From Halosimplex rubrum (lineage in GTDB: Archaea; Halobacteriota; Halobacteria; Halobacteriales; Haloarculaceae): a stretch of DNA of 64,000 bases. Both the position numbers and the translations under genes were made by a program. Each line of letters opens with the position of its first letter. Positions within the stretch are counted from its first letter, which is position 1. Below, piece after piece: positions 2,410 to 33,768 of this stretch. Below the pieces are notes generated by a model. It saw only the letters and a list, made by a program, of their open reading frames with translations, had not been told where the DNA came from and did not search any database. The stretch is from the NCBI RefSeq assembly GCF_013415885.1, contig NZ_CP058910.1, positions 682,001-746,000 on the forward strand, read 5' to 3'.

Positions 2410-3546
2410 CTATCGCTCGTCCAGCGGCGGGTACTCCAGATCCTCGGGACCGGTGTACCGCGCACGGGGACGGATCAGGCGGTTGTCCTCGACGTACTCG
2501 GCGGCGTGGGCGATCCAGCCGGCCGAGCGACTCATGGCGAAGATGGGGGTGTAGATGTCGACGGGGATACCCATCTGGTAGTACGTCGACGCCGAATAGA
2601 AGTCGACGTTCGGGGCCAGCCCCTTCTCGTCGGCCATGAACTGCTCGATCTTCGTGGAGTACTCGTACCACTTGGGGGTGCCGGCGGCCTCGCCGAGCTC
2701 CTGGGAGCGCTCGCCGAGGATCTTCGCGCGGGGGTCCTTGACGTTGTAGACGCGGTGACCGAACCCGGAGACGCGGCGGCCCTCCTCCAGGGCCTTCTCC
2801 GCCCAGCCGACGGGGTCGCGGTCGCTCTCGTCGACCTCCTCGAGCATCTCCATCACGTCCTGGTTGGCGCCGCCGTGGAGCGGGCCCTTCAGCGTGCCGA
2901 TGGCCGAGGTGACGGAGCTGTGCAGGTCCGAGAGCGTCGAGGCCGTGGTGATGGCGGAGAACGTCGAGGCGTTGAACCCGTGGTCGGCGTGCAGAACGAG
3001 CGCCATGTCGAACGTCTCGGCAAGCACCTCGTCGGGCTCCTCGCCGTTGAGCATGTAGAGGAAGTTCGCGGCGTGGGAGAGGTCCTCGCGGGGTTCGACG
3101 GGGTCGTCGCCGTCGCGCATCCGCGTGAACGCCGCGAGGATCGTGGGGATCTTGGCGGTGATGCGCCGCCCCTTGCGGAGCGTCGCCTCGCGGTCGGTGG
3201 CGGGCTCGTCGGCGTCGGGGTCGTACGCCGAGAGCATCGAGACCGCCGTCCGGAGCGCGGCCATCGGGTTCTCGTCGGCGGCGGCGAGCTGGCCGACCGT
3301 TTCGAGCACGTCCTCGTCGACCGAGCGCTCGGCGACCATCGAGTCGGTGAAGGCGTCGAGGCGGTCGGCGTCGGGCAACTCGCCGTGCCAGAGCAGGTGG
3401 ATGACTTCCTCGTAGCTCGCGTGTCTGGCGAGGTCCTCGATCGCGTAGCCGCGGTAGATGAGTCGCCCCTCGTCGCCGTCGATCTTGCTGAGATCGGACT
3501 CGGCGACGAGCACGCCCTCGAGGCCCTTCCGTAGCTCGTCGGTCAT
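2410..3546 (-). CDS. gltA: Citrate synthase
   Basis: Condenses acetyl-CoA and oxaloacetate to citrate, entering the TCA cycle. At 378 residues it matches the short archaeal and Gram-positive type. The catalytic His-His-Asp set is visible: H224 in LHGGAN, H264 in GFGHRVYN and D315 in NVDFYSAS, with the conserved H189 in ADHGFNAS. The start MTDELRKGLEG is the family-typical N-terminus. An AAAAGGG stretch about 25-31 bases upstream on the coding strand side could be the TATA element of a leaderless transcript. The stop is TAG, and the 3' end is repeated beyond a palindromic element at 2172-2249. Malate dehydrogenase of the same cycle is at 45426. Confidence 0.97.
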   Translation of the reverse strand: MTDELRKGLEGVLVAESDLSKIDGDEGRLIYRGYAIEDLARHASYEEVIHLLWHGELPDADRLDAFTDSMVAERSVDEDVLETVGQLAAADENPMAALRTAVSMLSAYDPDADEPATDREATLRKGRRITAKIPTILAAFTRMRDGDDPVEPREDLSHAANFLYMLNGEEPDEVLAETFDMALVLHADHGFNASTFSAITTASTLSDLHSSVTSAIGTLKGPLHGGANQDVMEMLEEVDESDRDPVGWAEKALEEGRRVSGFGHRVYNVKDPRAKILGERSQELGEAAGTPKWYEYSTKIEQFMADEKGLAPNVDFYSASTYYQMGIPVDIYTPIFAMSRSAGWIAHAAEYVEDNRLIRPRARYTGPEDLEYPPLDER

Positions 3547-31163: not shown

Positions 31164-33422
31164 ATGTCCACAGTGGCGAGTGCGTCAGACCCGGATCCGG
31201 ACTACCTGCGCTTTTTCCCCTACGACCAGCCCTACGACCACCAGACGGAGGCGATGGGGACCATCTACGACGCGCTCGACGAGCGGCGGAACGTCCTCTT
31301 CGAGGGCGCGACGGGGACGGGCAAGACCCTCTCGGCGCTGGCGCCCGCGCTGGAGTACGCCCGCGAGACGGGCAAGACGGTCGTCATCACGACCAACGTC
31401 CACCAGCAGATGCGCCAGTTCGTCCGCGAAGCGGCCGCTATCACCGACCAGGAGCCCATCCGCGCCGTCGTCTTCCAGGGGAAGGCGTCGATGTGTCACA
31501 TCGACGTGGGCTACGAGGAGTGTCAGGCGCTGCGCGATACGACCCGGGAACTCGTCGACGCCGAGGAGAACCGCGCCGAACTGGAGGACCAGCAGCGCGC
31601 GCTGCTGGAGGAGAGCCAGGACGGCAGCGCCGAGGCGGCCGACGCCCGCGGCGCGGTGATGGACGAACTCGAGTCGGTCGAGGCGGAGATCGACCAACTG
31701 CGCGAGGAACGGAACGTCTGCGACCACTACTACCGGAACCTGACCGCCGACACCGACGCCTTCTACGGGTGGCTCTACGACGACGTGCGCACGCCCGAGG
31801 ACGTGTACGGCTACGCCGAACGGGAGGGCATGTGCGGCTACGAACTCCTCAAGGAGGGCATGGAGGGGGTCGATCTCGTGGTCTGCAACTATCACCACCT
31901 GCTCGACTCGATGATCCGCGAGCAGTTCTTCCGGTGGCTGGGCCGCGACCCGGAGGACGTGATCGCCGTCTTCGACGAGGCCCACAACGTCGAGGACGCC
32001 GCCCGCGACCACGCCCGGCGCACGCTCACCGAGACGACGCTGGACCAGGCGGTCGAGGAGCTAGAGAGCGCCGAGGACCCCCGCGCCGAGGGGGCGCTGA
32101 ACGTCCTCGACACCTTCCGGCGGGCGCTGGTCGACGCCTACGACGAGGCCTTCGGCTTCGGCGAGCGCGAGGGGGTCGGCGAGGACTGGTACGACCTGTC
32201 GATCGACAACGAGGACGCCCGCGACGAGTTGACCCTCGCCTTTCTACAGAACTACTCCGGACCGGGCTTTCACGAGGAACTCGACCGGACGCTGGACCTG
32301 GCGCGGGAACTCGACCAGTCCTACGAGGAGGCCTACAAGAACGGGGAGACGACCACGCGCCAGGAGTGCCAGACGCTGCAGGCCGCCACCTTCGTCGAGG
32401 CGTGGCTCGACGAGTCGGCCGCCGAGGGGCAGTACCCGGTCGTGAGCGTCCGCCGCGCCGAGGAGGGCGGGCCGCGGGAGGCCGGCGAGATCTACGGCCG
32501 CGCGGAGCTGTACACCTGCATCCCGAGTCAGGTGACCGCCGATCTGTTCGGCGACCTGCACGCGGGCGTGCTGATGAGCGCGACGCTGCGGCCGTTCGAC
32601 GTGACCGAGGACGTGCTCGGCCTCGACGACCCGGAGACGCTGGCCTACGGCCCGCAGTTCCCCGAGGAGCGCCGGCGGACCTACGCCGTCGACGGGCCGG
32701 CCCTGTTCGCCAGCAAGCGCGACGACATGCAGGTCCAATCGACCGTCGCCGGCGCGCTGGAGGACGCCGCGCGGTTCACGCCCGGCAACACCCTGGCCTT
32801 CTTCCCGAGTTACGCCGAGGCCGAGCGCTACCACCAGCGCGTCGACACCGGCGGCGCGACCTACCTCGACCGCCCGGGCACCTCGGCCAAGGAGTTGCGC
32901 GAGCGGTTCACCGACGACGACGACGCCGTCCTGTTCACGTCGCTGTGGGGCACCCTCGCGGAAGGGGTGAGCTTCGACGGCGACGACGCCCGGACGGTCG
33001 CCGTCGTCGGCGTCCCCTACCCTCACCTCGACGACCGCATGGAGGCCGTTCAGGAGGCCTACGACGCAGAGTTCGGTGAGGACGGGGACGCGGGTCGCGG
33101 CGGCTCGGGGTCGGGCGGCGGCCGGGACGACGGCGAGGGCGCCGGCTGGCGCTACGCCGTCGAGATCCCCACCGTCAGAAAGACCCGCCAGGCGCTCGGC
33201 CGCGTCGTCCGCTCGCCCGAGGACTTCGGCGCCCGGATCCTGCTCGACCGGCGCTACACCGAGCGCTCGGAGGTCGAGATGTCCGACTACTCCGTCCGCA
33301 CCACCTTCCCGCCCGAGGAGCGCCGCGAGATGGTCGACGTCGAGCCCGGGAAGCTGAAGTTCGCGCTGCTGAACTTCTATCGGGACGTGGACGGCTACGA
33401 CGGCGAGCCGCCGCGACCGTAG
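31164..33422 (+). CDS. XPD/Rad3-like ATP-dependent DNA helicase with Fe-S cluster
   Basis: A 752-residue superfamily 2 helicase. Walker A is GATGTGKT (48-55) and the DEAH box is at 271-274 in VFDEAHNVED. The four Fe-S cysteines of XPD/FANCJ-type helicases are present: C111 (MCHID), C120 (EECQA), C186 (NVCDHY) and C224 (GMCGYE). The C-terminal RecA-like lobe holds VLMSATLRPFD, LFTSLWGTLAEGVSF and QALGRVVRSPEDFG with the motif VI arginine. It unwinds 5'-3' and probably acts in repair. The stop is TAG, and its last 13 codons reappear downstream at 33557-33598 beyond a palindromic element. Confidence 0.95.
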   Translation: MSTVASASDPDPDYLRFFPYDQPYDHQTEAMGTIYDALDERRNVLFEGATGTGKTLSALAPALEYARETGKTVVITTNVHQQMRQFVREAAAITDQEPIRAVVFQGKASMCHIDVGYEECQALRDTTRELVDAEENRAELEDQQRALLEESQDGSAEAADARGAVMDELESVEAEIDQLREERNVCDHYYRNLTADTDAFYGWLYDDVRTPEDVYGYAEREGMCGYELLKEGMEGVDLVVCNYHHLLDSMIREQFFRWLGRDPEDVIAVFDEAHNVEDAARDHARRTLTETTLDQAVEELESAEDPRAEGALNVLDTFRRALVDAYDEAFGFGEREGVGEDWYDLSIDNEDARDELTLAFLQNYSGPGFHEELDRTLDLARELDQSYEEAYKNGETTTRQECQTLQAATFVEAWLDESAAEGQYPVVSVRRAEEGGPREAGEIYGRAELYTCIPSQVTADLFGDLHAGVLMSATLRPFDVTEDVLGLDDPETLAYGPQFPEERRRTYAVDGPALFASKRDDMQVQSTVAGALEDAARFTPGNTLAFFPSYAEAERYHQRVDTGGATYLDRPGTSAKELRERFTDDDDAVLFTSLWGTLAEGVSFDGDDARTVAVVGVPYPHLDDRMEAVQEAYDAEFGEDGDAGRGGSGSGGGRDDGEGAGWRYAVEIPTVRKTRQALGRVVRSPEDFGARILLDRRYTERSEVEMSDYSVRTTFPPEERREMVDVEPGKLKFALLNFYRDVDGYDGEPPRP

Positions 33423-33437
33423 GGAGACACCTCGTCC

Positions 33438-33556
33438 GCGAACGAAGCGAGCGGTTCGCCGCGCCGAGCGGAGCGAGACGCGGCCTTTTCGCCCACGTTT
33501 TTCGCCGAGTGGTCCCGAGCGAAGCGAGCGACCCCCGGCGAAAAAGGTGGTCTCAT
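33438..33556. repeat. Palindromic intergenic element, copy B
   Basis: Between the helicase stop and its detached 3' copy. It contains a short palindrome GCGAAC (33438-33443) / GTTCGC (33454-33459). A larger hairpin follows, with CCCACGTTTTTCGCCG (from 33492) pairing with CGGCGAAAAAGGTGG (to 33550) over a loop of gagcgaagcgagcg style. The ends match the ends of copy A at 2253-2375 (CCACCTTTTTC and GAAAAAAAGGGGG). The T-rich arm could also serve as a transcription terminator of the helicase gene. Confidence 0.7.
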
Positions 33557-33598
33557 CAGGACGTGGACGGCTACGACGGCGAGCCGCCGCGGCCGTAA
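33557..33598 (+). pseudogene. Detached copy of the helicase 3' end
   Basis: 42 bases encode QDVDGYDGEPPRP and TAA, against RDVDGYDGEPPRP and TAG at the true end (33381-33422). There are only three base differences: one missense, one synonymous, and the stop exchange. There is no start and the frame is not continuous with the gene. It follows GGCGAAAAAGGTGGT directly, as the citrate synthase copy does. Confidence 0.88.
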
Positions 33599-33768
33599 GG
33601 TCGAGTTACCCGACCCGGGCGCCGACAGCGACGAGACGGCGGTCCCGTTCGGACGGCTGAACTCGCAAGCGCAGGTTGCGGGTCACCCCGGTCTGGACGC
33701 GACCTGTTCGCGGAGTGGTCCCCCGATTCCGGATACGTAAGCCGGGCCCGACCCAACGACGCCACGCT

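Follow-up and report, generated by a model that had tools for sequence, protein, structure and literature searches.

A haloarchaeal terminator-like repeat family and the gene-end duplications beside its same-sense copies

Behind an XPD/DinG-like helicase gene of Halosimplex rubrum, the end of the gene is met a second time on the far side of a palindromic element. How did a gene end come to be repeated there, and is the arrangement particular to this gene? The coordinates below refer to the window, i.e., the whole stretch of 64,000 nt that was analysed. The helicase locus has the following features (basis of each assignment in parentheses):

31164–33422, + strand: XPD/DinG-like helicase gene, Helicase_C_2 and DEAD_2 (Pfam, ORF)
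33379–33424, + strand: repeat copy 1, the functional gene end, stop TAG (direct-repeat comparison)
33425–33491, + strand: hairpin-forming stretch and first T-tract, between the helicase stop and the core (sequence, fold, comparison of relatives)
33492–33550, + strand: element core CCCACGTTTTT...GAAAAAGGTGG, a short degenerate family member (pattern matches, family model)
33551–33554, + strand: junction TCTC, three gene-matching bases and one extra base (junction comparison)
33555–33600, + strand: repeat copy 2, stop TAA, running into the original flank (empty allele of G003 aligned through copy 2 into the flank)

The helicase and citrate synthase loci

The initial annotation had described the helicase 3' end as repeated past a palindrome, and the comparison of the copies confirmed this. 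The two gene ends, separated by a palindromic element ending in GAAAAAGGTGG, are 93% identical with three mismatches in about 43–46 bases, one of which changes the stop codon from TAG to TAA in copy 2. They are spaced by about 133 bp (176 bp from start to start). The segment between them had been given as 134 bp of palindrome. Its sequence is indeed palindromic, and it folds unremarkably as DNA (z −1.2) because the core of the helicase copy is degenerate. The full 134 bp cannot be taken as the mobile unit, however: the hairpin region before the core is often native 3'UTR and was duplicated together with the gene end, which at some loci leaves a mobile part of less than 134 bp.

The same layout had been claimed for an unrelated gene 31 kb away, citrate synthase, where the features are as follows:

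2410–3546, − strand: citrate synthase gene, stop TAG (Pfam)
2411–2486, − strand: repeat copy 1 (repeat alignment)
2253–2409, − strand: element behind the gene (fold, pattern matches)
2249–2252, − strand: TGGC spacer, the right junction of the element (junction comparison)
2172–2248, − strand: repeat copy 2, stop TAA (repeat scan and alignment)

This claim was borne out. The copies are 83% identical over 76 bp, and the element folds more strongly than that of the helicase (z −3.2 vs −1.2). When the 64-kb window was scanned for all spaced direct repeats 40–700 bp apart, the helicase pair and the citrate synthase pair (2173–2245 and 2411–2483) were within the top three scores. The background repeat score, taken from 485 random positions, had a 95th percentile of 13, and real copies scored 18–144; the background maximum of 200 looks like an edge artefact or a local repeat. 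Beyond the window, the search of other haloarchaeal genomes that the initial annotation had proposed found the layout at over 20 unrelated genes, spread over several genera and families. An assembly artefact was rejected, as the layout recurs across several complete chromosomes.

The element family and its orientation relative to genes

The element core follows the consensus CCCAYG-T5-stem-GGTNCCCGCAG-hairpin-CGAGGAN'ACC-stem-A5-GRTGG, with T-tracts on both strands. It measures 55–80 bp and is longer where extra hairpins are present; L058, L094, and L009 have long cores of 134–195 bp with extra hairpin modules inserted inside the element. Across the 18 predicted pairs of the core, 96.7% of the cells are paired. 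Double changes in paired cells number 93, compared with 30.5 in shuffles and 6–27 when the partner was slid, and this strong, RNA-like covariation includes G-U pairs. In the 4.48-Mb genome, there are 14 occurrences of the motif GAAAAAGGTGG and 3 of a control pattern. One occurrence, L019, is a probable chance match; at most of the others, the upstream gene end is repeated (41–141 bp), and the repeat begins ~4 nt past GGTGG at most sites.

A collection scan returned about 100 loci, nearly all haloarchaeal and about 30 with gene-end duplication, from the genera Halosimplex, Haloarcula, Halorientalis, Halorhabdus, Halorussus, Halogeometricum, Salinibaculum, and Halapricum. With a covariance model of the core, matches were obtained in at least 99 of 116 haloarchaeal genomes, across the class, and at least 39 matches in the Halosimplex rubrum genome, with no more than 42 candidates scored in each genome. 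Three near-identical 143-bp copies stand at unrelated sites of G000 (C1:4201994, 1091895, and 654892); their likeness suggests recent dispersal within this genome.

No match to a described element emerged from the sources searched: the curated structured RNA families of Rfam and the viral contigs of IMG/VR gave none, and the open-licence literature holds no description of such an element family with gene-end duplication. A named structured RNA and carriage by phage were rejected on the Rfam and IMG/VR results, respectively. The integron attC cores RYYYAAC/GTTRRRY are absent, the element ending in CCCAYG and GRTGG, and the element is too short for a transposase gene.

Whether a copy is accompanied by a duplicate follows its orientation. 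In a first set of 101 distinct copies, 40 have a gene-end duplication; the left-hand gene reads into the element in 39 of these, and the GGTGG type accounts for 39 of the 40. Most same-sense GGTGG copies have a duplicate, compared with 1 of 43 GATGG copies and 0 of 29 copies that end, on the right, no more than 12 nt from a convergent stop codon. Some loci of this set are orthologous, and the right-end pattern served to find part of it. A second set, from many genera, was sampled according to model score; the pattern filter recovered 56 copies from 80 regions, and copies with unusual ends are under-counted. Ten of the 56 are duplicated, all with the left-hand gene reading in, and duplication is absent from all 21 that adjoin a convergent stop. 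The duplication varies in length from about 30 to 141 bp and occurs in one orientation only.

The element often has its right end 0–5 nt past a stop codon or close behind a tRNA, an arrangement that suits a terminator for both strands. In Haloferax volcanii, T-stretches are confirmed terminators (PMC7237163). The element is probably a transcription terminator acting in both directions, a function that is inferred. Archaeal T-tract terminators (PMC7237163) likewise have T stretches behind the gene and on both strands; the element differs from them as a covarying family with long direct repeats. Among individual loci, an antisense element stands directly behind the thermosome stop in several Halosimplex genomes (L066, L102, and L005, the latter at G000 C1:3281209), and the right end lies a few nt past a tRNA 3' end at L073, L090, L091, and L096, the tRNAs being recognised by eye from their T-arm sequence.

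Empty alleles, junctions, and divergence of the copies

The initial annotation had also proposed to look for empty alleles. Alleles with a single gene end were found in Halosimplex relatives at the helicase, citrate synthase, and several other loci. At the helicase, the element is missing and the gene end is single in G001, G003, G005, and G006; element and second copy are both present in G000, G002, and G004. The single gene end of G003 aligns on into the flank behind copy 2. The citrate synthase site is occupied in G000 and G006; in G004, the element is missing and part of a second copy is present. At L009, some species have the element without a duplicate; hence, element and duplicate are separable.

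The clearest case, L247 of the Halosimplex rubrum genome, looks young, its copies being identical over 85 of 85 bp. About 27 bp of 3'UTR belong to the repeat and contain a hairpin, which can also be made out in the empty allele of G002; the element begins directly after this hairpin. The site has one copy in G002, G004, and G007, collinear with copy 2 and its flank. This collinearity shows that copy 2 occupies the original position, whether the insertion is old or new. As G005 and G006 have a related element at this site with a slightly different junction, the L247 allele may be an old insertion with recently homogenised copies and not a new insertion. Different species have orthologous copies of the element at several loci, so that many cases are not independent events; fresh events are few.

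The right junction is precise and usually reads GGTGG, three bases identical to those in front of copy 1, a single extra base, and the repeat. Examples, L247 included, are TTC-T, TAC-T, TCT-C, TCG-C, CAG-C, ATG-C, GTC-T, and ACT-C. By hand count, all three bases match the gene in 11 of 14 distinct 4-nt junctions (chance 1/64 each). The extra-base rule fails at L089, L120, and L263, where the spacer is missing. The extra base offers the best lead on the enzymology. The three-base match may be partly maintained and not original, because gene conversion can reach the junction bases.

For three genes, the mean identity of the copies within a species is 0.94, 0.95, and 0.86, compared with 0.72–0.89 between species, and the junctions are the same between species despite this likeness. 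Coding differences between copies, pooled over 42 loci that are not all independent, number 145, with 27, 20, and 98 at codon positions 1, 2, and 3, respectively; 97 are synonymous. A fragment drifting beside a constrained gene is expected to show fewer synonymous differences (under half by our estimate). From the within-species likeness and the mostly synonymous differences, we conclude, on sequence evidence alone, that the copy pairs are homogenised or imported by recombination. Efficient gene conversion is described for polyploid haloarchaea (PMC11276520). The start of citrate synthase copy 2 resembles G006 and that of copy 1 resembles G004 and G007. This pattern suggests import of copies from other species, a transfer that is inferred. 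DGR-like templating was rejected, as the differences lie mostly at third codon positions and the RVT_1 search of 24 relatives found no reverse transcriptase.

Tandem units of gene end and element are found at L021, L085, and L249 (G010, three units), as expected from unequal exchange. At L249 (G010 C1:700500–704500, 1050–1540), the three units have alternating hairpin types, and two more copies lie nearby.

Possible routes to the duplication

Several known systems are similar in part. REP palindromic repeats, which are RAYT-associated, are likewise short, hairpin-forming, intergenic, and near gene 3' ends, with a possible terminator role. The element differs from them by its gene-end duplication; no GTAG tag was seen, and the Y1 transposase was undetected in two carriers. 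The MITEs, PATEs, and SMRs of Haloquadratum are also short, transposase-free mobile repeats of haloarchaea (PMC3119063). Unlike the present family with its gene-end duplication, PATEs and SMRs are described as giving no target duplication, and the MITEs are tied to known transposons (PMC3119063). Integrative elements at gene or tRNA 3' ends resemble the element in that a copy of the gene 3' end lies on the far side of the insert. Here, in contrast, many unrelated genes are targeted, and the inserts, mostly <250 bp, are too short to contain an integrase gene, which rules out a gene inside the element and not one acting in trans.

An ordinary non-autonomous DNA transposon (MITE) or a repeat mobilised by RAYT/Y1 would agree with a short, palindromic, dispersed element with the inverted ends CCCAC/GTGG. 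We regard such an origin as very improbable: the duplications of 41–141 bp vary in length and have a single orientation, and the short fixed-length target-site duplication of a DDE-transposon MITE is not met (about 30–141 bp, variable). In addition, PF01797 (Y1_Tnp) was undetected in the carriers G006 and G012 and present in most others, a result that depends on search sensitivity and assembly completeness. The variable duplication length and the added junction base had prompted us to consider reverse transcription, in which element RNA would be reverse transcribed at a nicked target with variable, LINE-like target-site duplications; the precise right end and the RNA-like covariation with G-U pairs would suit it as well. 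This route was strongly weakened and then dropped, as RVT_1 (PF00078) was found in none of 24 relatives, among them every one of the eight genomes of the genus, in a search that detected its positive controls and remains sensitivity-dependent. The duplication was therefore probably not made by an RVT_1-family reverse transcriptase, and we give retrotransposition hardly any credence.

The main alternative is a tandem duplication of gene end and element, with the element already behind the gene and the second element later lost or truncated. It may apply at some loci: true arrays exist (L249 in G010 with its three units, L021, and L085), and the second copies in L271, L227, and L006 include part of the element region before the break. 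Overall, we consider it unlikely, since at the helicase and L247 copy 2 runs straight into a flank that is collinear with element-free alleles, so that this route would need the exact loss of the second element, and since most same-sense GGTGG copies of the first set are duplicated. A gene-specific integrative unit, i.e., a circle or fragment with gene end and element that enters the corresponding gene of another strain through homologous recombination, would use the copies as homology arms. Identical junctions recur across species and in one other genus (helicase in G020), and the starts of copy 2 are common to species, with the rest host-like (citrate synthase in G000/G006, a methyltransferase-like locus in G002). 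Common ancestry with gene conversion also explains shared junctions, however, and spread at one gene does not account for the same element at unrelated genes; we judge this reading distinctly unlikely.

On balance, we lean towards an undescribed, class-wide family of haloarchaeal terminator-like repeats, in which an insertion in the same sense gives rise to a second gene end through synthesis or repair at the DNA level and the repeats then act as homology arms. Placing the element in the same sense as the preceding gene would duplicate the stretch from 40–140 bp upstream to the element start; as single-copy empty alleles reveal, this stretch often ends right after the native 3'UTR hairpin. We infer a pair of offset breaks, the first close to the transcription end and the second 40–140 bp upstream within the gene, which would be bridged by the copied element; a microhomology template switch from the element right end back into the gene could be inferred instead. 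At the right end, the join would be exact and would include three bases of the gene plus an added one. Through the repeats, recombination could later remove the element, build tandem arrays, and homogenise the copies, and by inference probably takes the element into the corresponding gene of related species. The duplicating enzyme has not been identified, which counts against this favoured reading, as do the orthology of many cases, the element without a duplicate at L009, and the junctions that lack a spacer. A more novel version is possible and put forward only tentatively: an insertion process linked to transcription ends would, without reverse transcriptase, copy the terminator-like element behind a gene and re-synthesise the last 40–140 bp. 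If true, same-sense insertion leaves the gene intact and brings its own homology arms for spread to the same gene elsewhere, between species.

Short palindromic repeats are a known kind of element. Same-sense copies with long, variable gene-end duplications are undescribed in the open-licence literature, and a prior description is not excluded. We know of no DNA-mobility mechanism that would be expected to make such a strand-specific, same-sense duplication, and it is not expected from any of the mechanisms tested either. The family is very widespread, apparently undescribed, and spans a whole archaeal class; its copy pairs are natural recombination substrates for gene-conversion studies in polyploid archaea. 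For annotation, partial gene copies behind genes are not necessarily remnants of lost paralogues. As a minor observation, a 26-bp tandem repeat array lies directly upstream of one element copy (L012, 1206–1349).
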